Below are positions 10,701 to 35,245 of a stretch of 64,000 nucleotides of DNA, piece after piece. The DNA is from Desulfuromonadaceae bacterium (GTDB lineage: Bacteria > Desulfobacterota > Desulfuromonadia > Geobacterales > Pseudopelobacteraceae), in assembly GCA_028683435.1 (NCBI GenBank), contig JAQUIG010000010.1:1-64000 (forward strand), written 5' to 3'. Positions within the stretch are counted from its first letter, which is position 1. The number at the start of each line of letters is the position of its first letter. The notes beneath the pieces were generated by a model. That model worked only from the letters and a program-made list of their open reading frames with translations, was not told where the DNA came from and searched no databases. The translations under genes were made by a program, and so were the position numbers.

Positions 10701-10748
10701 TTGCGACAGTCATGAAAAGGGACAGGCCCCCCACTTTTTATGTCGTAC

Positions 10749-10777
10749 TTGACTTCTTGCTCTTGGAAGCGTAAAAA
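10749..10777 (+). promoter_or_regulatory. sigma70 promoter of tRNA-Lys
   Basis: TTGACT (10749-10754), 17-base spacer, TAAAAA (10772-10777). It lies 28 bases before the tRNA 5' end and points at it. Confidence 0.55.
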
Positions 10778-10805
10778 TTTCTCTTCGATGTAGCGTTGTT
10801 TAAAT

Positions 10806-10881
10806 GGGCACATAGCTTAGCTGGTAGAGCAGCCGACTCTTAATCGGCAGGTCGACGGTTCGATCCCGTCTGTGCCCACCA
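10806..10881 (+). tRNA. tRNA-Lys (CTT), CCA encoded
   Basis: Acceptor stem GGGCACA pairs with TGTGCCC, discriminator A, encoded CCA at 10879-10881. The anticodon stem-loop is GCCGA-CTCTTAA-TCGGC, giving anticodon CTT. The T-arm GACGG-TTCGATC-CCGTC is canonical. Total 76 nt. Confidence 0.97.
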
Positions 10882-10903
10882 TTTTCACTGGTCGTATCCC
10901 AAC

Positions 10904-17828: not shown

Positions 17829-18530
17829 ATGCCGGCCTCCCCACAACAAAAGGTTCTTGTCTCGATTAACTCGGTTTCTAAAGCATACCAGCGCGGTAAT
17901 CAGCCGATACCGGTGCTGGAAGGGATCTCTTTCGAGATCGTCAGGGGTGAGTTTCTGGCCTTGATGGGGCCGTCAGGGTCGGGAAAATCAACGCTGCTCA
18001 ACCTGATCGCCGGGATAGACACCGTTGACAGCGGGTCCATCGTGATTGACGGCATCGATATTGCGACGCTGAACGAGGCGGAGCTGGCGCGGTGGCGGTC
18101 GGCGCATGTCGGCTTTATCTTCCAGTTTTACAACCTGATACCTGTTTTGACCGCGTACGAAAATGTTGAACTGCCGCTGCTCTTGACCTCGCTTTCACGC
18201 CGTGAGCGCCGCGAGCATGTTGAAGCCGCCCTGGCCGTTGTCAGCCTGACTGACCGTATGGAACATTATCCGTCGCAGCTTTCCGGTGGCCAGCAGCAGC
18301 GGGTGGCGATCGCCCGTGCGATCGTCACCGATCCTACCATTCTGGTGGCCGACGAGCCGACCGGCGACCTCGACCGGCTCTCTGCCGGGGAAATTCTCGG
18401 CCTGATGGACCGCCTGAACGAGGAGCAGGGGAAAACAATCATCATGGTTACCCATGATCCACGCGCTGCCGAGAAGGCGCATATCATCCGCCATCTGGAA
18501 AAAGGGCTGCTGACTGATGTTTATCCTTAA
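17829..18530 (+). CDS. ABC transporter ATPase, MacB/LolD type
   Basis: 233 residues, a complete nucleotide-binding domain. Walker A GPSGSGKST, Q-loop FIFQFYNLIP, signature LSGGQQQRVA, Walker B ILVADEPTGDLD and the switch His in VTHDPRAA are present. The ATG lies 2 bp after the adaptor stop and the 3' end overlaps the permease gene by 14 bp, so the three are one unit. In MacB-type systems the ATPase drives a mechanotransmission permease rather than transport through the membrane. The function here follows its neighbours: export or lipoprotein/envelope handling. Confidence 0.92.
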   Translation: MPASPQQKVLVSINSVSKAYQRGNQPIPVLEGISFEIVRGEFLALMGPSGSGKSTLLNLIAGIDTVDSGSIVIDGIDIATLNEAELARWRSAHVGFIFQFYNLIPVLTAYENVELPLLLTSLSRRERREHVEAALAVVSLTDRMEHYPSQLSGGQQQRVAIARAIVTDPTILVADEPTGDLDRLSAGEILGLMDRLNEEQGKTIIMVTHDPRAAEKAHIIRHLEKGLLTDVYP

Positions 18531-19674
18531 GCTTCTTTTCCGCAACGCTTTCCGCCATGCCTTGCGGACGTTGCTGACGATTCTGGGGATAACAGTTGCT
18601 ATTTTGGCCTTCGGACTTCTGCAGACGGTCATCAGTGCCTGGTATGCCGGAGCCAACGCCGCATCGTCCGCCCGTCTGATCACCCGGAACGCTATTTCAC
18701 TGGTTTTTTCGCTGCCAGTCTCGTATCGGGAACGTATCCGGAGTATCGAAGGAGTCTCGGCGGTTTCATACGCCAACTGGTTCGGCGGTGTTTATATCAC
18801 GGAAAAGAACTTCTTCCCCAGCCTTGCCATTGAGCCGGGTAGTTACCTGGAGCTTTATCCGGAATTCGTCCTGACAGCAGAGGAAAAACGGGCATTTTTA
18901 CTGGATCGGAAAGGGTGTGTAATCGGGAGAAAGCTGGCCGAGCGCTTTGGCTGGAAGATCGGTGATTCAATTCCTCTCAAGGGGACCGTATTTCCCGGGA
19001 CCTGGGAGTTTGTCGTTCGGGGCATCTACAGCGGCGCTGAAAAATCAACCGATGAATCACAGTTCTTTTTTCAGTGGGAGTACCTGAACGAAACACTCAA
19101 AAAAACGGTTGCCAGGCGGGCCAATCAGATCGGTGTATATATAATCGGTCTCAAAAACCCACAAAATGCCGCCGAGGTCTCCCTGGCAATTGACGCAAGC
19201 TTCAAAAACTCACTCGCAGAAACCCTGACAGAAACGGAAAAAGCCTTTCAGCTCAGTTTTGTTTCGATGACCGAGGCGATTGTCGTGGCGATCCGTATCG
19301 TATCCTTTGTCGTGATTATCATCATTATGGTGGTGGTCGCCAACACCATGGCCATGACGGCCCGTGAAAGAATCGGGGAGTACGCGATCTTCAAGGCGAT
19401 GGGCTTTCAGGCGCATCACATCGCCGGCATGGTTTTCGGTGAATCGCTCTTTATTGCGGCAACGGGAGGATGTCTCGGCATACTGCTGACCTTCCCGGTC
19501 GCGAGTAAATTCGGCGAGGTCATGGGGAACTATTTCCCGGTGTTCCAGGTTGATCGTTCAACCATCTATATGGATCTGCTCTTCTCTCTGATCGTAGGGG
19601 GCGTTGCCGGAATCTTTCCCGCCTGGCGTGCGGTCAGGATAAAGATTGCCGATGGTTTAAGAAGGATTGGCTAA
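18517..19674 (+). CDS. FtsX/MacB-type ABC permease
   Basis: 385 residues. TM1 near 15-35 (TLLTILGITVAILAFGLL), a large extracytoplasmic domain (about 45-255), then three membrane segments near 265-290, 310-340 and 345-375, the standard FtsX fold arrangement. ARERIGEYAIFKAMGF is the conserved coupling-helix region facing the ATPase. It overlaps the ATPase gene by 14 bp. The separate ATPase and permease resemble LolCDE/HrtAB-like layouts as much as the fused MacB. Confidence 0.9.
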   Translation: MFILKLLFRNAFRHALRTLLTILGITVAILAFGLLQTVISAWYAGANAASSARLITRNAISLVFSLPVSYRERIRSIEGVSAVSYANWFGGVYITEKNFFPSLAIEPGSYLELYPEFVLTAEEKRAFLLDRKGCVIGRKLAERFGWKIGDSIPLKGTVFPGTWEFVVRGIYSGAEKSTDESQFFFQWEYLNETLKKTVARRANQIGVYIIGLKNPQNAAEVSLAIDASFKNSLAETLTETEKAFQLSFVSMTEAIVVAIRIVSFVVIIIIMVVVANTMAMTARERIGEYAIFKAMGFQAHHIAGMVFGESLFIAATGGCLGILLTFPVASKFGEVMGNYFPVFQVDRSTIYMDLLFSLIVGGVAGIFPAWRAVRIKIADGLRRIG

Positions 19675-19683
19675 GGAGTTGTA

Positions 19684-21063
19684 ATGAAGATAAAAATTCT
19701 TGTCGTCGATGATGAACTGAGTATGCGGGAGTTTCTCTCGATCCTGCTGGAGCGGGAGGGGTATGCAGTGACCGTCGCCGGTTCCGCCGAGGAGGCGTTA
19801 CGTACGATGGCGTCTGGTTACTTTGATCTGGTGCTGTCAGATGTAAACATGCCCGGTCTTTCCGGCATAGAACTTCTGGCCCGCATCAAAGAGAAATCCC
19901 CCGAAACCGCCGTGCTGATGCTCACCGCCTTTTCAGCCGCCGAGCAGGCGGTGGAGGCGATGAAACTGGGTGCCTATGACTATGTCTGCAAGCCGTTCAA
20001 GAACGAGGAACTCAAGCAGTTGGTGAAAAATGCGCTTGAAAAGCAGGGGCTCAAGCGTGAAAACGTTCTGTTGAAAAAGAGTGTCAGCGAACGGGACAGC
20101 TTCTGCGGTATGATCGGCAAAAGTCGGCGTATGCAGGAACTTTTTGACATGATCCGGAAGGTTGCCGCCAGTCAGAGCAGTGTGCTGATACTTGGCGAGA
20201 GTGGAACCGGCAAAGAACTGGCGGCCCGTTCGATCCATACCTGCAGCCCGCGGAGGTCAAAGCCGTTCGTCGCCGTCAATTGCGGCGCCATCCCGGAAAA
20301 CCTCATTGAGAGTGAGCTCTTCGGGCATAAAAAAGGTTCATTCACCGGCGCGGTCAGTGATCGGCCTGGTCTGTTCGAACAGGCCGAAGGGGGGACGCTT
20401 TTTCTCGACGAAATCAGCGAACTGCCGTTACTGCTGCAGACCAAACTGCTGCGGGTGCTGCAGGAGCGTGAATTCAGGCGGGTGGGGGATGCCCAGACCC
20501 GCAAGGCCGATGTCCGGATGGTGTGCGCCTCCAACCGTGATCTTGAAGGAGAGGTCCGGGAAGGGTCGTTTCGGGAAGACCTCTTTTATCGCATCAACGT
20601 TGTGCAATTGGTTATGCCGCCGCTTCGGGAGCGGATTGAGGATATTCCGCTGCTGGTAGAACATTTCTGCCGGAAATATCAGGGGGGTGGGGCCTCCGTG
20701 CCGGTATCAGTCACACCCGGAGCCCTCAAGGCACTGATGAATCACCCCTTCCCGGGGAATATCCGCGAACTGGAGAACTGCATCGAACGTAGTCTGATTA
20801 TCGCCCCGGCGGTTATTTCTGAAAGTGCTCTGCCGCAACAGCTTCTGGTCACCAGACCACCCTGCCTCACCGCCGATTGCGATATCCCCGATGGGGGGAT
20901 AATGCTTGAACCGTTGCTGGAGGATCTGGAGAAAAAATATCTGCTCAAGGCGCTTGAGAAGAGCGGTGGAGCAAAAAAGAAAGCGGGTGAGCTTCTCGGG
21001 ATGTCGTTTCGTTCGTTCCGTTATCGGCTGGCCAAGTTCGGCCTGGACAGCGGCGAGGAGTAA
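19684..21063 (+). CDS. sigma54-dependent response regulator, NtrC family
   Basis: 459 residues. Receiver with Asp53 (LVLSDVNMPG) and CKPF; AAA+ with GESGTGKE, Walker [12 protein letters not shown] and an arginine-finger region; C-terminal Fis-type helix-turn-helix (AGELLGMSFRSFRYRLAKFG). The sigma54 loop reads GSFTGA in place of the usual GAFTGA, a variant whose effect cannot be judged from sequence. A strong site (AAGGAG) precedes the ATG, 9 bp after the permease stop. No histidine kinase gene lies nearby, so its partner is elsewhere. Its place between a pump and an AsmA-like gene suggests that it regulates this cluster. No convincing -24/-12 element was found in front of these genes. Confidence 0.93.
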   Translation: MKIKILVVDDELSMREFLSILLEREGYAVTVAGSAEEALRTMASGYFDLVLSDVNMPGLSGIELLARIKEKSPETAVLMLTAFSAAEQAVEAMKLGAYDYVCKPFKNEELKQLVKNALEKQGLKRENVLLKKSVSERDSFCGMIGKSRRMQELFDMIRKVAASQSSVLILGESGTGKELAARSIHTCSPRRSKPFVAVNCGAIPENLIESELFGHKKGSFTGAVSDRPGLFEQAEGGTLFLDEISELPLLLQTKLLRVLQEREFRRVGDAQTRKADVRMVCASNRDLEGEVREGSFREDLFYRINVVQLVMPPLRERIEDIPLLVEHFCRKYQGGGASVPVSVTPGALKALMNHPFPGNIRELENCIERSLIIAPAVISESALPQQLLVTRPPCLTADCDIPDGGIMLEPLLEDLEKKYLLKALEKSGGAKKKAGELLGMSFRSFRYRLAKFGLDSGEE

Positions 21064-21072
21064 CCGGTCACG

Positions 21073-21132
21073 ATGAAATTCAATACGAGGAATCTAAGGA
21101 TGTTACCGGATATTTTTAACGCATCTCTATGA
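21073..21132 (+). CDS. possible 19-residue leader ORF before the AsmA-like gene
   Basis: ATG at 21073 opens MKFNTRNLRMLPDIFNASL and its stop overlaps the AsmA-like start as ATGA. The AsmA-like start itself has no good ribosome site, so coupling through this leader would explain how it is translated. The leader's own site (AGGAG at 21056-21060) is about 12 bases away, longer than ideal. Could be chance. Confidence 0.25.
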   Translation: MKFNTRNLRMLPDIFNASL

Positions 21133-24100
21133 GCACTCTCATGCGCAGAGTACATATCGTACGTGCCCTTAAAATCGCAGCAGTAGTCGTTGCCGGCAGT
21201 TTTTTAACGCTGCTGATCTTCCTTTATTTCCTCCCGACCCTTGTCAGCAGCAATGCGGCACAGATCCGGATTCAGCAATTGCTCTCTTCCCACCTGAAGC
21301 GTCAGGTGTCCTGGTCGAACCTCGCGGTGACCTGGGCAGACGGCCTGACGCTCTCCGCCCTCAAGCTCGGCGAAGGCCCGCCGCCATTTCTTAAGACCAA
21401 TATTGACCGGATTGTTATCATCCCTTCCATCGGCCGTGCAGCCGACGGGCGCTTCGGCATCGACCTCACGATCCTGATTCGAAACGTTCGGGCTGAACTC
21501 ATCCCTGTCCCCAAAAAAGCGCCACTCCCGCCACCGGCCAAAGATCCATTGACTCTGCTGGCAGAGTCGATCCAGCGCATTCAGGAGCTCGATTTTCCGC
21601 TGCCTGTTGACCTGCGCGTCATGGTTGAGGTGGCACCGCTGCAGATCGTGTACCGGGCACCGGGAAAGCAGCTTCGGTTGGAGGATTTTTCGTTCCGTTA
21701 TGCGATGCCTTCGCTTGCAGCCAGGCCGATTACGGCTGAGCTTAACGGCCAGGTATCGGCCGATGGGCGGGAGATGGGGAGAGTCAGCCTCAACGCGAAA
21801 GTGAGCGATCTGGTAACCAAAACTCGGCGGATTCGTCCCTCATCTGCGCTTTTTGCCGTCGATGGGGCTGCGCCCGGCACAAACATAACGCTGTCCGGTG
21901 GACTCAGCCAGAGTGACGGTTTTGCCGCCCGCTGCAAGCTGGATCTGCCCCGATTGTTGGCGGTTTTGCAGCCGTTTGTGCCGCCGGCTGTTTCGAAGCT
22001 GGCGGGGATTGTTGAACTCCGGTTGCTGGCGAAGGCCGATGCGGACCGCGATATTCATGCCACGCTGACTATTGACGGCACCGGAGTGGCCGCACGCGGC
22101 GGTTTACTGAAAACAAAACGGGTCGGTCCGCTTGATCTAAAACTGCAGCAGCAGATTGACGTCGATCATACCCGCCACCTCGTCAATTTTCCGGGAGGCT
22201 TTCTCGACATGCCGGGCCTTATAAATGCCGGGTGGAGCGCAACAGTCACCAGCCCGACGTCGCCGGAAAGGACGCTTGATGTAAAGTTCGGCCCTCTGCG
22301 GCTCGATCTCGCCAGGACACTCCTCCTGGCTGCCCCGTTCCTTGCTCACGACACTCCCGTCAAAAATCTTGTCGGTGAAGTTTTCCTCCGTTCTCTGACG
22401 CTGCATCTGAAAGGGCCCGGAAACAACGGTGATCTTGCCGTTGCAGGCTTCGGCGTCAAAATACCGCAGATGCGGCTGGCTCTTAAAAGTGGGGAACTGA
22501 CCGCAGAAGATATCTACATGCTCCTTGAAAGTGCGGCATGTCCGCTGACCGTCAGTCTGCCGACCAAGCTGACTGCGGAGCTGCTCTGGAGCATCAGGCG
22601 TGCCGCGCTATCAGGTGCTCGCCCGCTCATCGTTCAGGGTGGACGCGGCAAGATAGGGGTGGCGGTTAACAACCTCAACCTGAAAAGCGGATCGTCGCGT
22701 AAAGTTGCCGCTTCCGCTCTGCTGACGCAAACAATTGATCTTGACCGCGCCTCACTTGGGACTCAGTTGATTATTGAAAAAACCCATAAACAGCTCCGGC
22801 TTCTGGTTCGTGCCTCCGAGAATGGCGAAATTGAGGTCAATTTGCCGGAGTTTGCCGTTACTGCTGCTTCCGTACGGGGAGTCCAATCCGGCAAACGATA
22901 CGGTCCGGTCCCGTTTGCTGCATCTTTGACAGCGGAAGGCCTTCGTTTCCCGGTTGGCAAAGATGTACGGCCGACACTGCAACGTGCTGAGACGAAGGTC
23001 TCGGCGGGTGATTTTCTGCAGCTGGGTGCCGAGGGGGCGCTTTCGGGGATGTCGCCCCGGCGTTTCGTAACAAAAGGCACTGCACGGCTTGACCTGCGGC
23101 GCGCCATGCCGTTTGCCGCCCCGTTTGTTCCGGCCGGTTTGAAGGGTGACGGTGTAATGACAGCGCTCTGGGATCTGGCCGGACCACTGCCGGAAAAGGC
23201 TTTTGTTGCCGAGAAACATCCGTTACGCAGGGCCCGGGCCGGATTGGCGCTCTTTGACAAATTCGAGCTGAGTATGAAGCTTGATAATGTCTCCGCCACG
23301 CTTCCTTCGGCCGGGGGGGCGATCACAATATCAGGTCTGCATACAAAACCTGATATCCGGGCTGTTTCAACAAAAAATGGTGAGTCTGTCAGCCTGAAGG
23401 GTGGGGTGGAGTTCTCCGGAGTGAGCGACCTCCCGGGGGCGGCCGGTAAAATGCCACCCCAGCATGGTTCATGTGTCTTTAACGGGGGACTTTCCGACTG
23501 GCGGGAGTTTCGTCTGCGGGAAGAGCTGAAGATTGATCCGCTGGCCGTCTCACATGAAGCCGCGCTGAACGTCAGCCGCATCGATGCGCTGCTGGATGAA
23601 AAAGAGCCGTTCAGCACGGCGACACTGATCAAGCGATTGGACGCCACTCTGTTAGCCGACGTTGACGGAAAGTTCGCTCGCGGATTGAAACAGCTTCTCC
23701 CCGGCTTTGATCTTGCGGGGGATGTCAGCGGTACACTTCGGGCCGACCTCAGCGCCGGTCGTGAGCTTGCGCTTCACTGCTCCCTGAAATCGAAAGATTT
23801 TGGCATCCAACTCGCCAACGGTACAAAGATCGAAGGTCTTCGCTCCGATATCGCGATTAATCGCGTGTATGCCCTCGCTCCGTCACAAGGTGACATCTGG
23901 ACGCCGCTCTCTACCTCCCTTGTCCGGCCGGCGGTCGTGCCGACCGCCAACCCCGGTGCTGCTGAAATTATCGGGCGGATCCATGACGATCTGCGCGGCG
24001 ACCTTCGCGGTGTCCGTTCGTTCTCAATCCGTCGTGTAACGACCAAGGTGTCCGGCATGCCGCTGGAGCTTACCGCGCTGGAGGGTGACCTGCTCTTTAC

Positions 24101-24731
24101 CCCGGAAAGCAGCGGTCTCACCTTTTTTCAGGCGAATCTGCTCGGGGGGACACTCCTTGCCCGCGGGGTGACAGATCTGCGCCCGGAGATACCTGTTGTT
24201 GCGGCGTCCAGTTCATTTTCAAATCTTGATGTTACCAATCTGCTGCCGAAAGAAACCAGACGCCTGGAGGCGGGGGAGGATGCGGAAATCACCGGCGAAA
24301 TGAGTCTGTCTGTGCCGCTGACACCCGAGCAGCGCGAGCTGTTTGAACAGTTGCGGCTGGCGCTGAATCTGCGCAAGATCGGAGCCAATACCCTTGAACG
24401 GGCGCTCTTCAGTCTTGACCCGTACGAGCGCAACGAGCAGCTTGTTGCCCAGCGCAAAATGCTGCGCTATGGCCGCCTGAAGGGGTTGCGGGCCAACGCG
24501 GTCGATGGTGCCTTCAGCATGGAGGGGGAGGTCCTGATTAAAGGGATTGCGGTCGATCTGCCGAAGGTCGAGCGCGTGCGGATTTCCGAACTGCCGCTTC
24601 GCCAGGAACTGGTGAAGAACCGAAAAACGATCATGGCGCTGCGCGGTTTTCTCGACCTGCTGCGGGCTGATACGCTGGTTGTCGGTCCAAAAGGGGAACT
24701 TTCATTGAAGCGGAGGAATTATGAAAAATAA
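21129..24731 (+). CDS. AsmA-like/YdbH-like envelope-spanning protein
   Basis: 1200 residues. One N-terminal membrane anchor (about 12-35) is followed by a long, mostly beta-strand periplasmic region with repeats of the style 'L-L-G-G-x-L-A-R-G', as in FFQANLLGGTLLARGVTDLR near the C terminus. Proteins of the AsmA/TamB/YdbH superfamily form hydrophobic grooves that carry phospholipids between membranes. Family membership is judged from size, anchor and strand pattern, not from an alignment. It overlaps by 11 bp with a lipoprotein gene whose end resembles YdbL, which favours the YdbH branch. Start at 21129; an ATG at 21141 is also possible. Confidence 0.7.
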   Translation: MSTLMRRVHIVRALKIAAVVVAGSFLTLLIFLYFLPTLVSSNAAQIRIQQLLSSHLKRQVSWSNLAVTWADGLTLSALKLGEGPPPFLKTNIDRIVIIPSIGRAADGRFGIDLTILIRNVRAELIPVPKKAPLPPPAKDPLTLLAESIQRIQELDFPLPVDLRVMVEVAPLQIVYRAPGKQLRLEDFSFRYAMPSLAARPITAELNGQVSADGREMGRVSLNAKVSDLVTKTRRIRPSSALFAVDGAAPGTNITLSGGLSQSDGFAARCKLDLPRLLAVLQPFVPPAVSKLAGIVELRLLAKADADRDIHATLTIDGTGVAARGGLLKTKRVGPLDLKLQQQIDVDHTRHLVNFPGGFLDMPGLINAGWSATVTSPTSPERTLDVKFGPLRLDLARTLLLAAPFLAHDTPVKNLVGEVFLRSLTLHLKGPGNNGDLAVAGFGVKIPQMRLALKSGELTAEDIYMLLESAACPLTVSLPTKLTAELLWSIRRAALSGARPLIVQGGRGKIGVAVNNLNLKSGSSRKVAASALLTQTIDLDRASLGTQLIIEKTHKQLRLLVRASENGEIEVNLPEFAVTAASVRGVQSGKRYGPVPFAASLTAEGLRFPVGKDVRPTLQRAETKVSAGDFLQLGAEGALSGMSPRRFVTKGTARLDLRRAMPFAAPFVPAGLKGDGVMTALWDLAGPLPEKAFVAEKHPLRRARAGLALFDKFELSMKLDNVSATLPSAGGAITISGLHTKPDIRAVSTKNGESVSLKGGVEFSGVSDLPGAAGKMPPQHGSCVFNGGLSDWREFRLREELKIDPLAVSHEAALNVSRIDALLDEKEPFSTATLIKRLDATLLADVDGKFARGLKQLLPGFDLAGDVSGTLRADLSAGRELALHCSLKSKDFGIQLANGTKIEGLRSDIAINRVYALAPSQGDIWTPLSTSLVRPAVVPTANPGAAEIIGRIHDDLRGDLRGVRSFSIRRVTTKVSGMPLELTALEGDLLFTPESSGLTFFQANLLGGTLLARGVTDLRPEIPVVAASSSFSNLDVTNLLPKETRRLEAGEDAEITGEMSLSVPLTPEQRELFEQLRLALNLRKIGANTLERALFSLDPYERNEQLVAQRKMLRYGRLKGLRANAVDGAFSMEGEVLIKGIAVDLPKVERVRISELPLRQELVKNRKTIMALRGFLDLLRADTLVVGPKGELSLKRRNYEK

Positions 24732-25323
24732 AATATTGAATCTGGAAAAAATATTATTCGCCCTGGTTCTTTTCGTATCGGGATGCACGCTCGCCAAGGT
24801 CGATGTCAATGTCGTCAGCGAACGGACGTCGCTGGAAAATCAGGTGCTCGGGACATACAACAGCCTGAACGAAGATATGCTGCTGGTCGCATCGGTGCGC
24901 GGCGTTTCTCCGACCGGTAAAATTGAAACGCCTCCGCGTCATACACCGGAACAGCTTGACGCCACCAGGGCGATGGAGACGATTGCGTTTCATGCCGATG
25001 ATATCGAGAGCTTCAAACGTCTCGGATGGGTCGGCGAGAATCAGGAGGGGTTGTTAACCCCATTCACCCGTGAAGTCCCGAAAGTTGCATCCGCAGAGCT
25101 GAAGTCGTTTGCCGCCAACTACAGCGAAGCAGAATTTCAACAGGTGGTAAAGGAGGTTAACCTGTCTCGTGAGACCCTGATGATGCGGGTGGTGCAGACC
25201 AATGAAAACTTTACGAGCAAGGATCTGCCCGCCATCAGAAAGGTCTTCGCCCGACTGAACCGCCAGAACAGCGCACCCGGCTCCAAGGTGCAGGAGCCTG
25301 ATGGTCGGTGGAGTACGTTATGA
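24721..25323 (+). CDS. lipoprotein with YdbL-like (DUF1318) C-terminal end
   Basis: 200 residues. The signal peptide ends in a lipobox, LFVSGC, so Cys22 would be lipidated. The C-terminal part (about 135-200) reads SRETLMMRVVQTNENFTSKD and closes with NSAPGSKVQEPDGRWSTL, recalling the YdbL/DUF1318 ending of the type 'G-x-x-V-x-x-x-x-G-x-W'. In E. coli, YdbH, the lipoprotein YnbE and YdbL act together as a bridge between the membranes. Here lipidation and the YdbL-like end occur in one polypeptide. AGCGGAGG precedes the ATG, which lies inside the AsmA-like gene. The next gene starts within its stop (ATGA). Confidence 0.7.
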   Translation: MKNKILNLEKILFALVLFVSGCTLAKVDVNVVSERTSLENQVLGTYNSLNEDMLLVASVRGVSPTGKIETPPRHTPEQLDATRAMETIAFHADDIESFKRLGWVGENQEGLLTPFTREVPKVASAELKSFAANYSEAEFQQVVKEVNLSRETLMMRVVQTNENFTSKDLPAIRKVFARLNRQNSAPGSKVQEPDGRWSTL

Positions 25324-28300
25324 GCTTAAAAAAACCTGTTTTAAATGTTTTTTACAGGACTGCCGTTTTATTCGCACTGTTCCTGTTAAACTGTTCTTCT
25401 ACCGCGGCCGCTCTGCCACTTGGCGATGAGCTGCTGGCGCCGGCGGCGCCCCGTCCGGCACCGCGATCCCGTCCGGAAATCTCCCCTCAGCCTGCTATTT
25501 TCAGCTCCCGCCAAGTCCTGTACGTTGCCCGTGCTGCCGACGGCACGCGGATGGTTACGGTTGAACGGGGGGACAAGGGGGACGAGCTTTGGCTCTACTC
25601 CTTCACCGCCGTTCCGGAACTGCCGCGCCTGCTCCATGCAAGCCAGGTTCGTCTTGCCGCGCCGGCTCTGAATTCCGCCGGAACGCTCGTCACTTTTGTT
25701 GATACAGAGGATGATGTCAAGGGTGATATCTGGCTGCTGAATCTGATAAAGTCTGATTCAGTTCCCCGGCGCTTGACCGGCCGGGAATCGGCCGATGACG
25801 CGCCGGTGTTTACGCCTGACGGGTCGGCGCTCGTGTACCAGCGTCAGCTCCCCGGCTCAGCAATGCGGGAACTGGTGCGGCTTCATCTTGACGATAATCG
25901 GAGCGAGACGCTGCCGCTCGGTATCGACGCCGCTTTTGCGGCCCCTTCGCCGGACGGAGGCAACTGGCTCTTTGTCTCACGCAAAACCGATTCGAGCGGC
26001 GATCTCTGGCTTTGGAACGAACGTGATGGGGGACTGACGCAGCTGACGAGCGGCGCCGGGCGTGATCTCTATCCGGTCTGGGAAACCCCGGATACGATCC
26101 TTTTTACCCGACACTCCGCAGCCGTTGGGAGCGCCGCAACCGGCCAGGAATCGGGGCAGATCTACCGGCTGCATCTCAAAAGAGACGGCAGTGACGGTTT
26201 CCCGTTTGTTTCTCCACTGACCTCGGCAGCATTGATGGCAGTGGCACCGCTTCCGGCGGGGGATCGTTTTTACTTTATCGCCGGTCTGGCCGGAGGGGGG
26301 CAGGTTATGTTTCTCCCTGCATCCGGCGAAATTCCGGATCGCGGGACCGCCGCCGAGCAGTGGGCACTGGCGCAGATACTTCTGGAGCGTCAGCCACCTG
26401 ACCCGGCTCATGCCCGCCTGGCTGCCTACCGTGTTCTGGCGAGGGAGGACCGTCCGACGCGCGAGGGGGCGCTGGCCGGACTGGCGCTGGCCGGACTGAT
26501 GGAGCGGGGTGGTGAAACCGCTCAAGCCGGTGAACAGTACGGAGCTGTTGCGCGTCGCTACGCCGGTTTTTCACGTGAAGCGGCGTTGGCCGGAATCGCC
26601 CGGATCAGGGTGCAGTCGGCGCAGCGGTGCAGTGATACCGTGCTGCTTCAGCGGCGGCAGGAGATACTCCACGGTGCGGAACAGGCGATGAAAGATGTTG
26701 CGGAGGGGCAGGGGGATGACGCCACGGCGCGCTATCTGATCGACGCGGCCCGTCTCCTGGCCGATTTCGGCGGCGGTGCCGCTGACCAGCTGGCTGCTGT
26801 CGGACGGGTTGAACAGGTGTCCCGCCTCAAAGATGCTTCCCGGTCGCTGAAGGCGGAGGCGGCCCTGCGCCGCGCCGTGCTGCTGACAAAGCTTGAAGGT
26901 GGTCCGGGGGCAATCGCGGCTCTGGTAGAGGTTGCCACGGTTTACGGTGATCAGGAAGAGTGGGCCGAAGCGGCGATCACTGCCATCCTCGATCAGGTTT
27001 CCCCCCGTGATCGTCCGGACCAGGGTGCGCTGGCAGCACTGGCCGAACGATACCGGACGGTGCTCCCCCGCTTGGCGATGGGTGCCTGGAATCGCCAGGG
27101 AGACGTGGCGTATCGGGCTAACGAGTGGGCCACAGCAAAGGATGCCTATCGCACGGTGCTTGAAAAATTCCCCGTTATTCCGACACCGACCGCTGCGGCG
27201 CGTTTTGCGCTGGCGGAAGTGCTCTATCGCGAGGAACGCTACGCAGAGGCGAAGTCGCTGTATGAAACGGAGATGAACCTGCAGCCGGAGGATACGCCGC
27301 TCTACCAACTTGCCCGGAGCGCCTATATCCGAAAAACGGTCGCCGCTGGTGAAAATCTATATCGCCTCGGGGAGGTTGCCGCCTCCCGTTCGATCTTTCT
27401 CGATCTGATCCGCTATGACGGGCGGAGTGTCGAAGCGCATCGCGGTTACATCAAATCTGTTGCCGCGATGGGGCAGGCCCGGGAGTTGCTCGGCCTGTAC
27501 CGGAAGATGCTCTCCTCCTATCCGGATGATCCGGTGCTCCTTTATGCAGCCGGGCTTACCCTGACCTATCTGCCGGGCAAGGAGAATCTGGCGGAGGCTG
27601 ACCGCCTGATCGCCAGGGCTGCGGAGCGGATGCCATCATCGGAGTATCCTCCCCAGACCAGGGGGTATCTTGCCGAGATCGCCGAGACGATGCATGGCGA
27701 ACGGGGTGGATTAGAGAGGGCGCTCGCACATTACCGTTGCGCCTGGTTGCTCAACCGGCCGCTGGAGCAGCCGGAAAACCGTGCCAACCTCGATCTGAAT
27801 ATCGGCAATATCGCTTTTCTGCTCGGCAGCAAGGCGACCGCCTGGAAGTTTTACAGCCAGAGACTCGCCGCAAAGATCCCGTTCGACAATCCCGATACGG
27901 AGCTGATCTTTCAGCAGCGTTATGCCGCGGTGGCGTTCCAGATGCACGAGAAAGAAGCGCCCATCGCCGGGTATCTGAGGGCGCTGCAGCTGGCGGAGGA
28001 ACGTCTCAATCCGTCCCGGCCGCTCGATCTGTTCGGCCGTCTGTCGCGGCGGGTCGTGGAGCGGCTGTTTTCCGGAACGGGGCTTAGTTCGTCAGCCCAA
28101 GCCTCCCTTGCAGAGCAGCAGGCGATAACCGCCGAGCTGGAACGACTGGGAGCGTCCCCACCGGAGGCACCCCCTTCGGCCGGGTGGAGCGATTTCGACC
28201 GTTCAATCCGCTTTCTGCTGCAGCGGGAACGGGCCCTGCTGGCCTCTGCACCTTCCTGGAGCAAAGATGCTGACAAAAGCGCTGCCGAACTGAACGGCAT

Positions 28301-31300
28301 GCTCGCCGGTGTGGAAAAAGAACTGGAGGCCGTGCCTCGCCTGGTGGAGACGGCTGCGGAGATCCATGATCGGCTCGGGCTGGCGTATCTTGAAGCGGAT
28401 CGCTATGCCGCTGCCCGTGAGCAGTTCGATGCCGCCTTCAGGCTGAACAGTGGGCTCGGGTTCAGCGGCAACCTCGCCTCCAACCGCCGTTCGGCCAGTA
28501 TTGCCACGTACAAGGAGGCGCATGCCGCTTCCGGTAAGGAACAGCAGCGCCTGCTGCGCCTGAGCCGAGACGGCTTTGCCGAGTTGCTGACTTTGATAGA
28601 GACAAATCCTCCCACGTCAAAAGTACCGGCAAAACGGAGCGGCGGCCTCGTGGCACTGTCCGCAACCGTGGCCCTCGACAAGGGTGGTTCAACCTCTGCC
28701 GCCTTCGGTTTCAGCGCCGAGCAGGAAAAACGGCTCGCTGAGACCTATTTGGCCCGCATCCACTCCGAACTGGGTAACCCGTCGGCCGCTTCCCTTCTGC
28801 TGGAGGATCAGTTGAAACGGTATCCGGCCGATAACGATAAAATTGCCGTGAGTGACCGGTACGGGGTTGCGCTCCTTGTCCACCGGGTCGCTTACATCGA
28901 TTATGCGCTGGGCAACCTCAAAAATGCGGCGGAAGGTTTTAAGCGCTCAACGCTCCTGGCTCTGCAAGGAGCCAACCCGATCAGCGCGATGCTCAATCTG
29001 GTTAACTGGGGGGAACTGCCGTCAGCCGATCCGAAACCGGTTGACATCGCCGCTTTCCTCGGCGCCGAGGCGCGTGTTTCGCGGCTTGCTGACGGTTCGC
29101 GTGCCGCTCTTCCGCCGCTCGTATATGGGCGCTATCATAATGATGTCGGAGCGCTTCTCGCCAGGCTGGCCCCTGCCGTAGCCGATGACGGCAGTCGTCA
29201 GGCGCTGCTACACAAGGCTCTGGAACGGTGGGACAGGACACTCTCCATCGTGGCCGACAGCAGTGACCCGGACCTGCTCCATCAGCAGCGACGCCAGCGG
29301 GTGACCGCCCAGCTTAACCGCGCTGCGGTTCTTGCGGCGCTTGGTCTGACCAATGCTGCCGAGGCGTCTCGCTACGCCGCTCTGGAGGAAGCCGACGGTG
29401 CGGCTGCGTATTCGCTCCAATGGCGCGCTCTTGCCGCCCTTGGACGCTATGATGAATCTCTCGGTGTGATCGAACATCTGCCGCTGACAGAGCATGACCT
29501 GCAGCGCGGCGAATTGCTGGAGCGCTTTGCGCCGCAGCTTGAAAAGCTCGCCGCCAAAAACCCCGAACAGGCGTTTGCACTGCTGGAACGTTTGAGTGAG
29601 CTGGAGCGGATTCAGCTGCTCGGACGGGGTGCTCTCGGGCTGGATGATCCGGTGACCACCAGTCAGTTCCGCGCCGCCGCACCCCACTTGGTCGAGATCG
29701 ACCGGCTGCGTGCTGCAGTTGCCAAGGCGACGGCTGCCGACAAGGAGTATCTGCAACTCCGGCTTCAGCAGGAACAGGCGGTCGTTGACGATCTCTTCGG
29801 CGCAAGGCTCGAACGGGTTCCGCCATATTACGCTCTGGCCGGGGAAGGCGCGTTGCGTCTTGCGGCGGCGTCGGTTGAACTGAGCAGGTTGTCACAGGAA
29901 GTGAACGTCTCGCAAACTCAAGCTGATGCATTCAAGGCCGCTCAGCAGCGATTCAATGACCTCCAGCGGGCTTTCAACAGTGAGTGCGCAGCAGGAAAAG
30001 GTGGGAGGCTTTGCCGCATGCTTTCTCCGCAACCGGTCGAGCTGATCGATGTATTGGAAACTCTGCCGGGGAAGATACTGCTCCGCTTCACGCCGCTTGA
30101 CAGCACGCGCTGGCTGCTCTTCACGGTCGGCGGAAAGGGTGTAATAGGTGCTGAAACTGTCGATACAACAGCGCTCAATGCCCGTCTTGCCGCTACTCCG
30201 CACGTTCTGGCTGCGTACGAGGATCCCTCCCGCTTTGCAGGCGCCCCGGTAATCAGCTGGGGGCTAAGCGCGACCCACCTGCTGCAGTCGGTTTCCCAGC
30301 GTAAACCGTTCCGCCGTCAGGTTATCGATCCTGCCGGCTGGTGGCCGGCGGCGGAACCATTTACCAAGCTTGTTTCACCCCGGATGAATGACCGCCTGCC
30401 CGATGCCCATTCCATCGTACTCCCGGCTCATGCCGGGCTGCTCCCGGAAGTGCCGTCACGCATCGGGGGAAGCGGCTATTTGCTGCCGTTATGGGAAGAT
30501 GAAAGTGGCCAGCGCCACCCGTTCTCAGAGCTGTCTGCAGCTGAAAATCTTTCCCTCGTCGTCGTCCCGCACGCCGGTTTCAGCCACATTTACAGCTTGG
30601 GGCATCTGACAGCGCTGATGGGTGTGCCATCGCTCCTTCTGTCTGACGGCGCACCGGGCGATTCTAAAAGATTCGTCGCTGCGTATGCACGTCAGTCGCT
30701 CGGTGATGCCGGTAAAACGCTGCAGCCGGGCTGGCTCCTTCTTGGTGATTGGGGGCCGGATGCGGCCGAGGCGGCAAAGCTGGGTAAAAGCCGTTTCAAC
30801 GAATACGGCAAAGCGGGCGTACTGGCGCATAACGCCGCTGCATACCCGAAAGCGCTCTCCCTGTTTGAGAATGCGTTGGCGATAGTCGCCGAAAACCCCT
30901 CCCTGGCAAAGCATCGCACCCAGTTGCACCTTTATGCCCGAGAGAGCGCGTTTGCCGCCGGTTTTACCGACAGGGCAATTGTCCATGCCGATGAGCTGGT
31001 CAAGGGGCTTGCCAAGGAAAAGCCGTATTCGCCCGAACATGCCGATGCGCTGCTGCGCCTCGGACTGCTGCAGGCGAATGGCGAGCGCTTTGCCGCTGCG
31101 GCTGTTTCTCTCAATGAGAGTGTCGGCATCTTTGCCGATCTCGGTATGGCAAAAGAGCAGGCGGCGGCGCTGGCGGACTTTGGCGTCGTGATGGAAAATG
31201 CGGTCAATTTCAGCGCGGCCCGCACCTTTTTCGAGGAATCGGCCGGTCTCCGCCGGACATTGAAGGATGATGTCTCTCTGGCCGAACAGTTCCGCAATCT

Positions 31301-33626
31301 TGGCCGCATCCATGACCTCCGCCTCAACCAGTATGCCGTTGCCGAACAGTATTATGCCCGTGCCGGGGAAATCTATGCGAGGGAAGCCAATGCTCCGCTG
31401 GAAGCTGAAACGCTCCTCGAACGTGGGCGCTGCCAGCGTCTGCTCGGCAACTTCCCGGCCGCCGACACATTATATAACGATGCGCTGACAAAGGTTGGTG
31501 CGAAGGATCTGCGCACAAAGATGCGGATCGTGCTGGAGCAGGCCAATAACGCCTGGTTCCAGGGGCGCTATCAGGAAGCGTTCGACCTGCGAGAGCAGGT
31601 GGAGAAAAATGCCCTGGCCGAAAAATGGCCGCTTGAGCAGGTAATGGCAAAGAACAGCGGCGGTCTGATCTGGTGGACGTTGGGGGACAACAAACGCGCT
31701 CTGCTGGAGCTGCGCGGAGCGCTGGAGCGTGCCGAAAAGCTGGCGGTCCGCCGTGATGAAGTTGCGACGACGCTCAACAACATCGGTCTCGTGCAGCGTG
31801 AAGCGGGGGAATATGCCAAGGCGCTGGAAACACTTGGCAAAGCGCTGGCGATAGACCGTAAGCTCGGCTCCCGCTGGGCGATGGCGTACGATCTGCGTAA
31901 TCTCGGTCAGACCCGCCTGAAGATGGGGGATGCGACCGCCGCGCTGCGGGAGTTTAGTGAAGCAGCCGGTATGGCGGCGGAAATCGGCGACAAGGTCAAT
32001 CTCGCCAAGATTCAACTCGCGCGCGGCGATGCAGAAACAGAACTGAAACAGCCGGCTGCCGCTGAAGCCAGTTATCGAAGTGCGCTTGAAATCGCCGATG
32101 CGCTGCTGCTGCGGGAAGTCCGCTGGCGGGCACTGTTCGGCCTCGCTCGTCTGCAGAAAATCGCCGGTGATTCGGTCGGTGCGATTGGCTCGTACCAGCT
32201 GGCGCTGGATACGGTTGAAGGTCTGCGCGCCGAGATCAAGCTGGATCAGCTGAAAGATGGTTTCCTCGCTGACAAGATGGATGTCTATTCCGGGCTTGTC
32301 ACTCTGCTGGTCGATCTGGGGAGAGGTGACGAAGCGTTTGCAGTGGCGGAACGTTCTCGTTCCCGCAACCTGATCGATATTCTCGGCCGTCAGCGGCTGT
32401 CACTCTCCGGGTCGGCCGAGCAGGAACTGTATGACCGCCAGAACCGGCTTAAGGAGCAGATGCTTGAACAGGAAAATCTGTCGGTTCAGGCGAAGAACCA
32501 GAAAGAGCGGGACCGCTATACCACGGCGCTTGAAAAGCTGCGCGGGGATTATCAGGATCTGCTGATCGAGATTGAGCGCAAGCGCCCGGAGCTGCTTTCC
32601 CTCGTGAAGGTGAACCCGACGTCGCTTGATGATATCCGTAAACTCCTTGAACCTGGTGTTGTTCTCCTCTCATATTATCAGCTGCAGGACCGGCTCCTCT
32701 GCTGGAAGATCGATCGGGAGCGGGCAACGCTGATTATTCAGAATATCCCGGCCAAAGATCTGGCCGCAAAAATATCGTCCTACCGTCGCATGCTGCAGAA
32801 TCTGGAGCCGCTGGAAAAACAGTCGCGCGAGCTGTATGACCTGCTGGTGGCAGAGCCGCTCGCACATAGTCCTTCGATCAAGGCGGTCGGAATAGTTCCG
32901 CACGGCAGTCTTCATTACCTGGCGTTTGCAACCCTGAGCGACGGGAGGGATTATCTGGTCGACCGGCAGAAGCTGTTTTATCTCCCAGCGACGTCGGTCT
33001 TGAAATATACTCTGGCGCGACGAAGTCCAGAGAAAAAGCTCCACATTCTCGCCATCGGCAACCCCGATCTCGGCAATCCGAACCTTGATCTCCCCTTCGC
33101 CGAGCGGGAAGCCGGAACCCTGCGCTGGAATTATCCGGACGTTACAACCCTGACCCGCGAACGCGCCACCGAGAGCTGGGTGCGGGAGCATATCAGCGAA
33201 TTCGGTGTTATACATATCGCTTCTCATGGCGAGTTCGATCCGGTCAACCCGCTCTTCTCCGCAATTCGTCTGACAAAGGATGCGAAGGCGGACGGCAAGC
33301 TCCAGGCAGAAGAGGTCTTCGGACTTGATATTCGTGCCGATCTGGTCGTGTTGAGCGCCTGTCAGACCGGGCTGGGAGATATACGAAGCGGTGATGATGT
33401 CGTCGGGATGAACCGTGCGTTTATCTTTGCCGGCACCCACTCCTTGATGTCGAGCCTCTGGAGGGTCAGCGACGTTTCGACGGCGATCATGATGAAACAG
33501 TTCTATCGCAATTATATGAGTTACGGAAAAGCCGAGAGTCTGATCCGGGCCATGCAGCATGTCAAAAATCGTTATCCGCATCCCGGTTATTGGGGGGCGT
33601 TTGTACTGACGGGGGATTATTTATAA
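25320..33626 (+). CDS. giant exported propeller-TPR-CHAT caspase-like protease with second degenerate CHAT domain
   Basis: 2768 residues. The start is ATG 25320, overlapping the lipoprotein stop as ATGA with GGAG seven bases upstream. A signal peptide ends near STAAA. A TolB/PD40-like beta-propeller (about 45-330; SPDGGNWLFVSR, GDLWLWNERDGGLTQLT) is followed by a long alpha-helical TPR-like region (about 350-1560). Residues about 1570-1815 resemble a CHAT fold without catalytic residues. A second TPR array (about 1820-2340) contains classic units such as ALETLGKALAIDRKLG. The C-terminal CHAT domain (about 2430-2768) has His2636 in IASHGEF and Cys2681 in LSACQTG, the caspase-type dyad. CHAT proteases cleave proteins after activation by partner modules. 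The target and trigger here are unknown, and export to the periplasm is inferred from the signal peptide. Confidence 0.88.
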   Translation: MSLKKPVLNVFYRTAVLFALFLLNCSSTAAALPLGDELLAPAAPRPAPRSRPEISPQPAIFSSRQVLYVARAADGTRMVTVERGDKGDELWLYSFTAVPELPRLLHASQVRLAAPALNSAGTLVTFVDTEDDVKGDIWLLNLIKSDSVPRRLTGRESADDAPVFTPDGSALVYQRQLPGSAMRELVRLHLDDNRSETLPLGIDAAFAAPSPDGGNWLFVSRKTDSSGDLWLWNERDGGLTQLTSGAGRDLYPVWETPDTILFTRHSAAVGSAATGQESGQIYRLHLKRDGSDGFPFVSPLTSAALMAVAPLPAGDRFYFIAGLAGGGQVMFLPASGEIPDRGTAAEQWALAQILLERQPPDPAHARLAAYRVLAREDRPTREGALAGLALAGLMERGGETAQAGEQYGAVARRYAGFSREAALAGIARIRVQSAQRCSDTVLLQRRQEILHGAEQAMKDVAEGQGDDATARYLIDAARLLADFGGGAADQLAAVGRVEQVSRLKDASRSLKAEAALRRAVLLTKLEGGPGAIAALVEVATVYGDQEEWAEAAITAILDQVSPRDRPDQGALAALAERYRTVLPRLAMGAWNRQGDVAYRANEWATAKDAYRTVLEKFPVIPTPTAAARFALAEVLYREERYAEAKSLYETEMNLQPEDTPLYQLARSAYIRKTVAAGENLYRLGEVAASRSIFLDLIRYDGRSVEAHRGYIKSVAAMGQARELLGLYRKMLSSYPDDPVLLYAAGLTLTYLPGKENLAEADRLIARAAERMPSSEYPPQTRGYLAEIAETMHGERGGLERALAHYRCAWLLNRPLEQPENRANLDLNIGNIAFLLGSKATAWKFYSQRLAAKIPFDNPDTELIFQQRYAAVAFQMHEKEAPIAGYLRALQLAEERLNPSRPLDLFGRLSRRVVERLFSGTGLSSSAQASLAEQQAITAELERLGASPPEAPPSAGWSDFDRSIRFLLQRERALLASAPSWSKDADKSAAELNGMLAGVEKELEAVPRLVETAAEIHDRLGLAYLEADRYAAAREQFDAAFRLNSGLGFSGNLASNRRSASIATYKEAHAASGKEQQRLLRLSRDGFAELLTLIETNPPTSKVPAKRSGGLVALSATVALDKGGSTSAAFGFSAEQEKRLAETYLARIHSELGNPSAASLLLEDQLKRYPADNDKIAVSDRYGVALLVHRVAYIDYALGNLKNAAEGFKRSTLLALQGANPISAMLNLVNWGELPSADPKPVDIAAFLGAEARVSRLADGSRAALPPLVYGRYHNDVGALLARLAPAVADDGSRQALLHKALERWDRTLSIVADSSDPDLLHQQRRQRVTAQLNRAAVLAALGLTNAAEASRYAALEEADGAAAYSLQWRALAALGRYDESLGVIEHLPLTEHDLQRGELLERFAPQLEKLAAKNPEQAFALLERLSELERIQLLGRGALGLDDPVTTSQFRAAAPHLVEIDRLRAAVAKATAADKEYLQLRLQQEQAVVDDLFGARLERVPPYYALAGEGALRLAAASVELSRLSQEVNVSQTQADAFKAAQQRFNDLQRAFNSECAAGKGGRLCRMLSPQPVELIDVLETLPGKILLRFTPLDSTRWLLFTVGGKGVIGAETVDTTALNARLAATPHVLAAYEDPSRFAGAPVISWGLSATHLLQSVSQRKPFRRQVIDPAGWWPAAEPFTKLVSPRMNDRLPDAHSIVLPAHAGLLPEVPSRIGGSGYLLPLWEDESGQRHPFSELSAAENLSLVVVPHAGFSHIYSLGHLTALMGVPSLLLSDGAPGDSKRFVAAYARQSLGDAGKTLQPGWLLLGDWGPDAAEAAKLGKSRFNEYGKAGVLAHNAAAYPKALSLFENALAIVAENPSLAKHRTQLHLYARESAFAAGFTDRAIVHADELVKGLAKEKPYSPEHADALLRLGLLQANGERFAAAAVSLNESVGIFADLGMAKEQAAALADFGVVMENAVNFSAARTFFEESAGLRRTLKDDVSLAEQFRNLGRIHDLRLNQYAVAEQYYARAGEIYAREANAPLEAETLLERGRCQRLLGNFPAADTLYNDALTKVGAKDLRTKMRIVLEQANNAWFQGRYQEAFDLREQVEKNALAEKWPLEQVMAKNSGGLIWWTLGDNKRALLELRGALERAEKLAVRRDEVATTLNNIGLVQREAGEYAKALETLGKALAIDRKLGSRWAMAYDLRNLGQTRLKMGDATAALREFSEAAGMAAEIGDKVNLAKIQLARGDAETELKQPAAAEASYRSALEIADALLLREVRWRALFGLARLQKIAGDSVGAIGSYQLALDTVEGLRAEIKLDQLKDGFLADKMDVYSGLVTLLVDLGRGDEAFAVAERSRSRNLIDILGRQRLSLSGSAEQELYDRQNRLKEQMLEQENLSVQAKNQKERDRYTTALEKLRGDYQDLLIEIERKRPELLSLVKVNPTSLDDIRKLLEPGVVLLSYYQLQDRLLCWKIDRERATLIIQNIPAKDLAAKISSYRRMLQNLEPLEKQSRELYDLLVAEPLAHSPSIKAVGIVPHGSLHYLAFATLSDGRDYLVDRQKLFYLPATSVLKYTLARRSPEKKLHILAIGNPDLGNPNLDLPFAEREAGTLRWNYPDVTTLTRERATESWVREHISEFGVIHIASHGEFDPVNPLFSAIRLTKDAKADGKLQAEEVFGLDIRADLVVLSACQTGLGDIRSGDDVVGMNRAFIFAGTHSLMSSLWRVSDVSTAIMMKQFYRNYMSYGKAESLIRAMQHVKNRYPHPGYWGAFVLTGDYL

Positions 33627-33842: not shown

Positions 33843-34373
33843 ATGAGAATGACACGTAGTATTGTTGCTGTCTTGGCTCTGTTGCTGGCAGCTTCTGTGG
33901 CGATTGCTGAAGAAAAAAGGTGGGTGTCGAGCGAGGGTACGGCGCTAAAAGCCGATGCATCGGCGACGTCAGAAAACATAGCAGATATGCAGATCGGCAC
34001 GGCGGTCACGGTTATCGAGTCCGGCGGTCGCTGGCTGAAGGTCAGGACGGCAACCGGAAAAGAGGGGTGGCTGTATACGGGGCGGGTTTCCGATACACCA
34101 CCGGCAGCTGAAGTTTCCGGCGACGGTGGCGGCCTGTTCGGCGCATCGATGCAGAAGAGTCAGATCAGTACGGCCAAAGCCGACAGTGCCCGCAGTATCC
34201 GTGGCCTTTCTCCGGAAGCGGCCCAGTACGCAAAAGATCGTGGCACCCCGGAAATGTACAAGAAATCCCTAGATGTTGTACTTGAACGTAAAGTTAGTGC
34301 CAATGAGTTGAAAGCATTTCTGAAAGAGGGGAAAATAGGCGAATATGCCCAGATACAGGGGGGTAAAAAATGA
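33843..34373 (+). CDS. exported SH3-domain protein
   Basis: 176 residues. Signal peptide (about 1-22, ending AIAEE), then a bacterial SH3 domain (about 25-85; TALKADASATSENIADMQIG, TGKEGWLYTGRV). A C-terminal helical part (about 115-170) contains RGLSPEAAQYAKDRGTPEMY. Bacterial SH3 domains often bind peptidoglycan or peptide ligands. AAAGGGGG precedes the ATG. Its stop overlaps the M48 protease start (ATGA), so the two are coupled and probably act together in the periplasm. Confidence 0.85.
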   Translation: MRMTRSIVAVLALLLAASVAIAEEKRWVSSEGTALKADASATSENIADMQIGTAVTVIESGGRWLKVRTATGKEGWLYTGRVSDTPPAAEVSGDGGGLFGASMQKSQISTAKADSARSIRGLSPEAAQYAKDRGTPEMYKKSLDVVLERKVSANELKAFLKEGKIGEYAQIQGGKK

Positions 34374-35245
34374 GGATTTTCCTATTAGGTGCGTTGGTAG
34401 TAGTGTCAGTTTCGGCTACATCGGCTTCAGCAGGCTTTTTTGACAAGATGCAGAATTTCGCCAATCCGGACTCAAAAGAGCGCAAAATATTTTCAGGTGC
34501 AAGCCAGCTATTATCAAGTTCGCAAGAAATAGATTATAAGACAGAGCGTTATATTGGTGAAAGCCTGGCTCTTGAAGGGTTGCAGCGTTTCGGCAATCCG
34601 GTGAAAAATGAATCGCTGCAGCGGTATGTCAACCTGGTAGGAACTGCGGTTGCCGGCAACAGTAAGCGTGCGACGATCCCGTATCAGTTCGCGGTACTGG
34701 ACAGCCCGGTGCAGAACGCCTTTGCCGTCCCGGGAGGGGTCATTTTCATCAGTCGCGCTCTGGTCTCTATTTTGGATGATGAGGCCGAACTGGCGGCAGT
34801 GCTTGCTCACGAAATCGGACACGTGTCGGCGAAACACGCATTGAAAAGCACCCAGCGCGCCCAATTTTTTCAAGGAGTAGGGACAATAACGGCTGCCAGC
34901 GTCAAGGGAGACAAAGGGAAACAGTTTGCAGCGGCCATAGGTGATATGCAGACGGTTCTGTTTGACAAGGGGCTTGATAAAACAATGGAGTTCGAAGCCG
35001 ATCTTGCTGCAATGGAGACGACCTATCGCACCGGATACGATCCCTCCGCGATGATAAGGGTATTGGAAAAACTGCAAAAGCTGGAAGTGTCCAGCACTGA
35101 TAAGAAGGGGTCATGGTTCTCAACGCATCCGCCTCTTTCCGAGCGCATTGCCAGACTTAAATCCCAACTGCGGAAATATCCGGATTATGCAACTCTGGCG
35201 TCTGTGCAGGGACGATTTGCAAAAAACGTGAAACTGAATAAATAA
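34370..35245 (+). CDS. M48-family periplasmic metalloprotease
   Basis: 291 residues. A signal peptide ends at SASA, near residue 22. The zinc site HEIGHVSAKH is followed by a third-ligand region FEADLAAMETTYRTGYDP and a family-typical WFSTHPPLSERI. Related secreted M48 proteases (BepA, LoiP) remove misfolded outer-membrane proteins. No TPR domain is attached, unlike BepA. It is coupled by a 4-bp overlap to the SH3 gene, which could supply substrate or wall binding. Confidence 0.92.
   Translation: MRIFLLGALVVVSVSATSASAGFFDKMQNFANPDSKERKIFSGASQLLSSSQEIDYKTERYIGESLALEGLQRFGNPVKNESLQRYVNLVGTAVAGNSKRATIPYQFAVLDSPVQNAFAVPGGVIFISRALVSILDDEAELAAVLAHEIGHVSAKHALKSTQRAQFFQGVGTITAASVKGDKGKQFAAAIGDMQTVLFDKGLDKTMEFEADLAAMETTYRTGYDPSAMIRVLEKLQKLEVSSTDKKGSWFSTHPPLSERIARLKSQLRKYPDYATLASVQGRFAKNVKLNK

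Follow-up and report, generated by a model that had tools for sequence, protein, structure and literature searches.

The known roles of CHAT and separase proteases are intracellular: they execute defence, cell death and chromosome separation. DdvA, the periplasmic TPR-CHAT part of which has an incomplete His-Cys site, acts in a system of the phage-defence or regulated-death type. For Csx29, two caspase-like parts were shown in the protease region, of which CHAT1 is a pseudo-caspase and CHAT2 is active; binding of the target by the partner switches the enzyme on, and the pseudo-caspase half contacts the regulator or partner (PMC10028731). In E. coli, the AsmA family protein YdbH, the lipoprotein YnbE and YdbL are encoded in one locus, and YnbE and YdbH were shown to move phospholipids to the outer membrane (PMC8593681, PMC11784454).

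This paper will focus on a locus of a Desulfuromonadaceae bacterium in which features of both kinds are combined. The window analysed, that is the whole stretch of 64,000 nucleotides from contig JAQUIG010000010.1, contains the gene for a giant protein, and the evidence supports one chain with an active-looking CHAT domain and a complete, catalytically dead CHAT domain. The gene lies in a conserved cluster which is similar to systems for lipid transport to the outer membrane.

Domain Organization of the Giant Protein

The open reading frame at 25320-33626 on the forward strand codes for 2768 residues without an internal stop; it lies exactly where the sequence-only reading had placed it, and the gene is conserved in relatives. 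The following features were assigned:

25320..33626, + strand: gene of the giant protein, 2768 amino acids; its ATG overlaps the TGA of the preceding gene (ATGA)
25320..25412, + strand: predicted Sec signal peptide, residues about 1-31; a hydrophobic core followed by small residues, judged by eye
25482..26354, + strand: TolB/PD40-type beta-propeller, residues about 55-345 (TIGR02800, E 2.6e-7; PF07676, E 4.7e-5)
26355..29489, + strand: first TPR array, residues about 346-1390 (TPR_2/TPR_16 at 592-644 and 1013-1044)
29502..30764, + strand: helical part and dead CHAT unit, residues 1395-1815 (hhalign, AlphaFold2 and structure matches)
30027..30764, + strand: core of the dead CHAT unit, residues 1570-1815
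30429..30431, + strand: H1704 of the middle copy, aligned with the catalytic His; not conserved
30570..30575, + strand: residues 1751-1752, the expected site of the Cys loop CQTGLGD; loop deleted
30807..32249, + strand: second TPR array, residues about 1830-2310 (PF13424, E 8e-18, five stretches; TPR superhelix in the model)
32607..33623, + strand: active-type CHAT unit, residues 2430-2768 (PF12770 at 2501-2766; separase-like model)
33225..33227, + strand: catalytic His2636; invariant in the family but for slips of the alignment
33360..33362, + strand: catalytic Cys2681; invariant in the family

The order is propeller-[TPR-dead CHAT]-[TPR-active CHAT]. The signal peptide, TolB-like propeller and two TPR arrays that had been proposed earlier are supported by the N-terminus and the model matches listed. 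Hydrophobic N-termini similar to that of the giant protein are present in relatives, and judged from its sequence the protein is probably exported to the periplasm.

The C-terminal CHAT domain was identified by Pfam (PF12770) at residues 2501-2766 with an E-value of 4.1e-56 and 191 bits against a cut-off of 24, and is the sole CHAT match in the source genome. The proposed His2636/Cys2681 dyad was located in the motifs HIASHGE at 2632, containing the catalytic H2636, and LSACQTG at 2678, containing C2681, and it is kept throughout the family: both residues are invariant in the family alignment (n = 25), and the Cys is present in all 47 of 47 ungapped aligned members. A fungal separase protease domain matches the active CHAT unit with a Z-score of 24.3 (rmsd 3.2 A over 292 residues), and the second half of the protein, consisting of the second TPR array and CHAT, aligns with Csx29 over about 518 residues (Z 26.1). 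With the dyad intact, the C-terminal CHAT domain is predicted to be proteolytically active.

Identification of a Second CHAT Unit

A repeat of the CHAT plan in the middle of the chain had been proposed from two pairs of motifs, VELIDVLETL at 1573 with TSLDDIRKLL at 2434, which are 861 residues apart, and GVPSLLLSDG at 1768 with GTHSLMSSLW at 2705. Both pairs were found at these positions, and the alignment by hhalign keeps the proposed register. The second CHAT unit is real; its limits, given as 1570-1815, had to be changed, for the repeated unit starts earlier, near 1395, where NPEQAFALLERLSELER is aligned with GRGDEAFAVAERSRSRN.

With the middle segment of the giant protein alone, no Pfam match was obtained, and the cut-off of PF12770 was not reached. 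Neither Pfam nor NCBIfam identified CHAT in the middle of the giant protein and of nine distant relatives, and pairwise BLAST of the middle against the C-terminus stayed at noise level. The middle CHAT domain is therefore not provable from the sequence of the giant protein alone. The comparison of profiles by hhalign gave a different result. With close orthologs only (Neff 1.7), the middle profile reached an E-value of 0.026, and with 27 sequences 2.5e-4 in one block. When 23 sequences (Neff 4.3), leaving out the two bridging and most divergent relatives, L166 and L167, were compared to a target of 36 diverse CHAT domains, a probability of 97% and an E-value of 5.2e-11 were obtained over 287 columns, running through the whole domain; inclusion of the two bridging relatives gave 2.1e-15. 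As controls, the reversed middle profile reached 0.065 against the CHAT domains, and the best of the other segments of the giant protein reached 9e-5, this coming from TPR segments, the alignment of which was confined to the TPR end of the target. The expected similarity to the CHAT profile was thus found by profile-profile comparison, while the single-sequence Pfam search gave no match.

The AlphaFold2 model of residues 1395-1835, built with 36 homologs, has a mean pLDDT of 91.6 and a pTM of 0.88. By Foldseek, the best PDB match of the dead copy was DdvA (E 6.2e-5, 14% identity), with separase next. In VIA-align 2, the highest similarities were obtained for human separase (Z 15.4, 4.3 A over 284 residues) and yeast separase (Z 15.2), followed by Csx29/TPR-CHAT (Z 14.3, 3.6 A over 258 residues) and DdvA (Z 14.0), with gingipains lower at Z 9.6. 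The predicted model thus has the CHAT/separase, or caspase-haemoglobinase, fold that had been anticipated for this segment. A search of PDB sequences with the middle profile gave only helical S-layer matches (E 0.009 or worse), which were taken as coiled-helix noise. Foldseek matches at E 0.1 or above, HIV reverse transcriptase among them, were likewise discarded.

Compared to the active unit, the dead unit is about 85 residues shorter, and helices and the Cys loop are missing from it. On the profile comparison and the predicted model, the assignment of residues from about 1395 to 1815 as a second, full separase-type CHAT unit is well supported.

Loss of the Dyad and Conservation of the Dead Copy

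The HG and SACQTG motifs, already reported as missing from the middle copy, are absent from it beyond this one protein. In alignments of 52, 38 and 25 members, no Cys was found at or beside the catalytic position, and the loop is deleted; His was present at the His position in only 2 of 52 aligned members, the others having R, P, A, G or other residues. Since the Cys loop is deleted and the His variable, the middle segment is a CHAT-derived domain and not a CHAT protease, and since the dyad is absent in all relatives, its loss is a family-wide trait and not a local lesion.

In L166 (G336, a genome of the phylum), an open reading frame of 2693 amino acids has the same layout as the giant protein, and both CHAT copies are recognised by Pfam, the middle one with 68.9 bits and an E-value of 6.4e-19. 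Here, the middle copy contains GMIHITDSLS and LVVITAVSGQ in place of GVHFASHG and IVMMSACQTG of the active copy, the dyad residues being replaced by Ser and Val. The middle copy of L167 is intermediate (Pfam CHAT, E 0.005). In a phylogenetic tree, the C-terminal copies of all members including L166 and L167 form one clade with support of 100/98, which shows that the layout was inherited as one family. The middle copies form very long branches of up to 5.8, and the tandem may have arisen either by duplication within the protein or by fusion of two TPR-CHAT proteins.

The dead copy is present in all full-length relatives, over several orders. Within the Geobacterales, the mean column identity is 67% for the middle copy versus 87% for the active CHAT domain, and between orders the identity is about 28% versus 57%. 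The dead copy has its own invariant residues at E, D, R, P and G positions, for example R1661 and P1663, which are unrelated to the dyad. From the absence of the dyad in all members and the presence of specific invariant residues it follows that the dyad was lost early and that the domain has been kept for a noncatalytic task.

The middle segment was identified in 44 of 141 Geobacterales genomes, nearly all of them with open reading frames of 2750-2850 amino acids where the contigs allow. Distant relatives with 23-31% identity occur in Desulfobacterales and Desulfovibrionales, and over the Desulfobacterota the distribution is patchy (12 of 395 genomes).

Several single loci deserve mention. 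In one complete Geobacterales genome (L056, G046), frame changes interrupt both the giant gene and that of the lipoprotein; the system may be decaying there, or the sequence may contain errors. In L109 of the Desulfobacterales, the giant open reading frame (6065-12538) ends within the second TPR array; no CHAT was found after its stop, and the cluster neighbours are absent. A genome of the same genus without the giant protein (L170, G077) contains at 3401-9037 an open reading frame of 1879 amino acids with a CHAT match (E 1.9e-27), in which a simple pattern search found no standard HG or SACQTG motif; from its sequence, this is possibly another dead CHAT domain in a different large protein. 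The genomes G375 (contigs 39, 53, 98 and 103) and G468 (contig 38) of the phylum carry many CHAT proteins, part of them encoded in adjacent genes.

The Conserved Gene Cluster

The giant gene is accompanied by four genes on the same strand:

21129..24731, + strand: AsmA/DUF748/YhdP-like protein, 1200 amino acids (assigned via relatives; tblastn homology)
24721..25323, + strand: lipoprotein, 200 amino acids, with lipobox VSGC and DUF1318, YdbL-like (PF07027, E 7.3e-8)
33843..34373, + strand: exported SH3-domain protein (PF08239, E 8e-8)
34370..35245, + strand: M48 metallopeptidase, BepA/LoiP-like (PF01435, E 3.5e-35; NF052400 (BepA), E 6.8e-25, below its cut-off)

The 1200-residue protein has an N-terminal membrane helix. 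It gave no Pfam match itself, and its relatives at the same position match DUF748 with 59.9 bits (cut-off 50) and AsmA with 52.1 bits (cut-off 29.8). The lipoprotein gene overlaps the genes on both sides, and overlaps of the ATGA type are enriched for subunits of complexes (PMC10666635).

The order of the five genes, AsmA/DUF748-like protein and DUF1318 lipoprotein (21129-25323), TPR-CHAT giant protein, SH3 protein and M48 peptidase (33843-35245), is constant wherever the flanks of a Geobacterales locus are long enough, and it recurs in most of the distant relatives, L167 among them. The AsmA-like and lipoprotein genes are located upstream of the giant gene in all Geobacterales loci that have sufficient flanking sequence, as well as in L108, L110, L111, L115, L119, L128-L130, L133-L135 and L167. 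Such neighbours were not seen in L112, nor in L166, the contig of which ends nearby. Among the 141 Geobacterales genomes, lipoprotein and giant protein occur together in 43 of the 45 which contain either; the exceptions are G086, where the match starts near the contig start, and G090. This co-occurrence of adjacent genes may reflect only joint inheritance of the cluster. Between orders, the lipoprotein shows 53-64% identity and is about as conserved as the active CHAT domain. Just before the cluster, at 17829-21063, a MacB/FtsX-type ABC transporter pair and a sigma-54 response regulator are encoded, which are not conserved beside the cluster in relatives.

Proposed Role of the Two CHAT Units

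The best explanation, which we put forward tentatively, is that the protein is an exported tandem TPR-CHAT protein linked to the AsmA-like protein and the lipoprotein, with an N-terminal half for docking or sensing and a C-terminal protease effector. The CHAT domain ending the first TPR array lost its dyad anciently, and the second TPR array leads to the active-type CHAT domain. Propeller, first TPR array and dead CHAT domain would form a periplasmic docking or sensing module, which may bind partners of the system of AsmA-like protein and DUF1318 lipoprotein. The second TPR array with its CHAT domain would be the effector, cleaving an envelope protein upon a change on the sensor side, as Csx29 cleaves Csx30 once the target is bound, and the adjacent M48 peptidase may belong to the same task of envelope quality control. 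A signal from the dead to the active copy, the sensing and the substrate are what we infer, as are protease activity and export. A more specific form, in which the system is one of the Desulfobacterota envelope, the dead CHAT domain senses an AsmA-type lipid bridge and the active one executes, so that a protease would be wired to outer-membrane lipid homeostasis, is considered doubtful at present.

The fast divergence of the dead copy and its shortening by about 85 residues with loss of helices and Cys loop would also fit a purely structural role, in which it caps the first TPR superhelix or serves as a spacer and the protein is a scaffold functioning only through its C-terminus. We regard this as unlikely, since full-length relatives from several orders all retain the dead copy and its invariant E, D, R, P and G positions, being unrelated to the dyad, suggest a conserved, putative binding site.

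Alternatively, as had been suggested earlier, the dead CHAT domain might directly inhibit or allosterically regulate the active one, within one chain or between the two chains of a dimer, in the way that pseudo-proteases control active proteases. Both copies are in the same chain and conserved, the dead one never being lost in full-length relatives, and in Csx29 it is the pseudo-caspase half that contacts the regulator (PMC10028731). However, a TPR array of about 500 residues separates the two domains, and the model of residues 1570-2768 (pLDDT 81.6) has a pTM of 0.54, so that no reliable mutual placement of both CHAT units can be read from it. The active copy also has its own pseudo-caspase half, so that an extra pseudo-copy is not needed, and the faster divergence of the dead copy, within and between orders, implies no strong constraint on its surface by an invariant partner. 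Direct regulation is therefore judged quite improbable. That the giant protein belongs to a Craspase- or DdvA/DdvS-like system for phage defence or regulated death, with incidental lipid-type neighbours, is suggested by its fold relatives Csx29 and DdvA, which act in such systems, but is very hard to reconcile with a protein predicted from its sequence to be exported, a cluster conserved over orders, neighbours which are envelope genes and core metabolism (acnB), and the absence of any CRISPR, cyclase or sigma/anti-sigma gene seen beside the giant gene.

The tandem sensor-effector arrangement remains the preferred reading. The giant gene keeps a constant position next to those of an AsmA-like protein and a DUF1318 lipoprotein, which suggests that the upkeep of outer-membrane lipids or proteins has a protease arm. 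An exported family with one dead and one intact CHAT domain is also a natural pair for asking why a pseudo-protease is kept, and culturable relatives are present in Geomonas and Citrifermentans bremense.

Comparison to Known Systems

In the open-access literature searched, no description of tandem, two or inactive CHAT domains was found, and a whole extra dead CHAT domain in tandem with an active one, exported and linked to an AsmA cluster, thus appears undescribed there. Pseudo-copies in this family are already known, since Csx29 and separase have a built-in pseudo-caspase half. Like the giant protein, Csx29 contains a TPR array followed by a separase-type CHAT domain with a His-Cys dyad. However, Csx29 from type III-E CRISPR (Craspase) is cytoplasmic, RNA-activated and consists of one TPR-CHAT unit of about 750 amino acids, whereas the giant protein is predicted to be exported, has 2768 amino acids and contains in addition a propeller and an entire further TPR-CHAT unit that is dead. 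Against the Csx29 model NF041237 it scores 43.7 bits, below the cut-off of 300, and no CRISPR genes were found in the neighbourhoods looked at.

Separase shares the helical array, the pseudo-caspase and the active caspase-like domain; the eukaryotic enzyme differs in having one protease unit, being nuclear, cleaving cohesin and being regulated by securin. DdvA from Myxococcus, a transmembrane anti-sigma factor (PDB 8rot/8rw5), is named a CHAT domain-containing protein in the PDB, and its incomplete His-Cys site provides a precedent for an exported dead CHAT domain. In contrast to the giant protein, DdvA, as a membrane anti-sigma factor, contains just one CHAT domain, which is incomplete; a second, active one is lacking, as are AsmA-type neighbours.

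YdbL of E. coli is a DUF1318 protein. Like ydbH-ynbE-ydbL, the cluster encodes together an AsmA-family protein (assigned via relatives), a lipoprotein and a DUF1318 sequence, in the same order and in overlapping genes. Among the cluster proteins, no match to YdbH or YnbE family models in Pfam or NCBIfam was obtained, and the AsmA-like protein resembles DUF748/YhdP models more than a YdbH model; the likeness of the lipoprotein to YnbE, resting on gene order and a short N-terminus, is a putative one. The cluster is thus YdbH-YnbE-YdbL-like and not a member, the likeness being one of kind and order. In comparison to the E. coli locus, lipoprotein and DUF1318 part lie in one gene here, and the TPR-CHAT giant protein, the SH3 protein and the M48 peptidase are added to the cluster.
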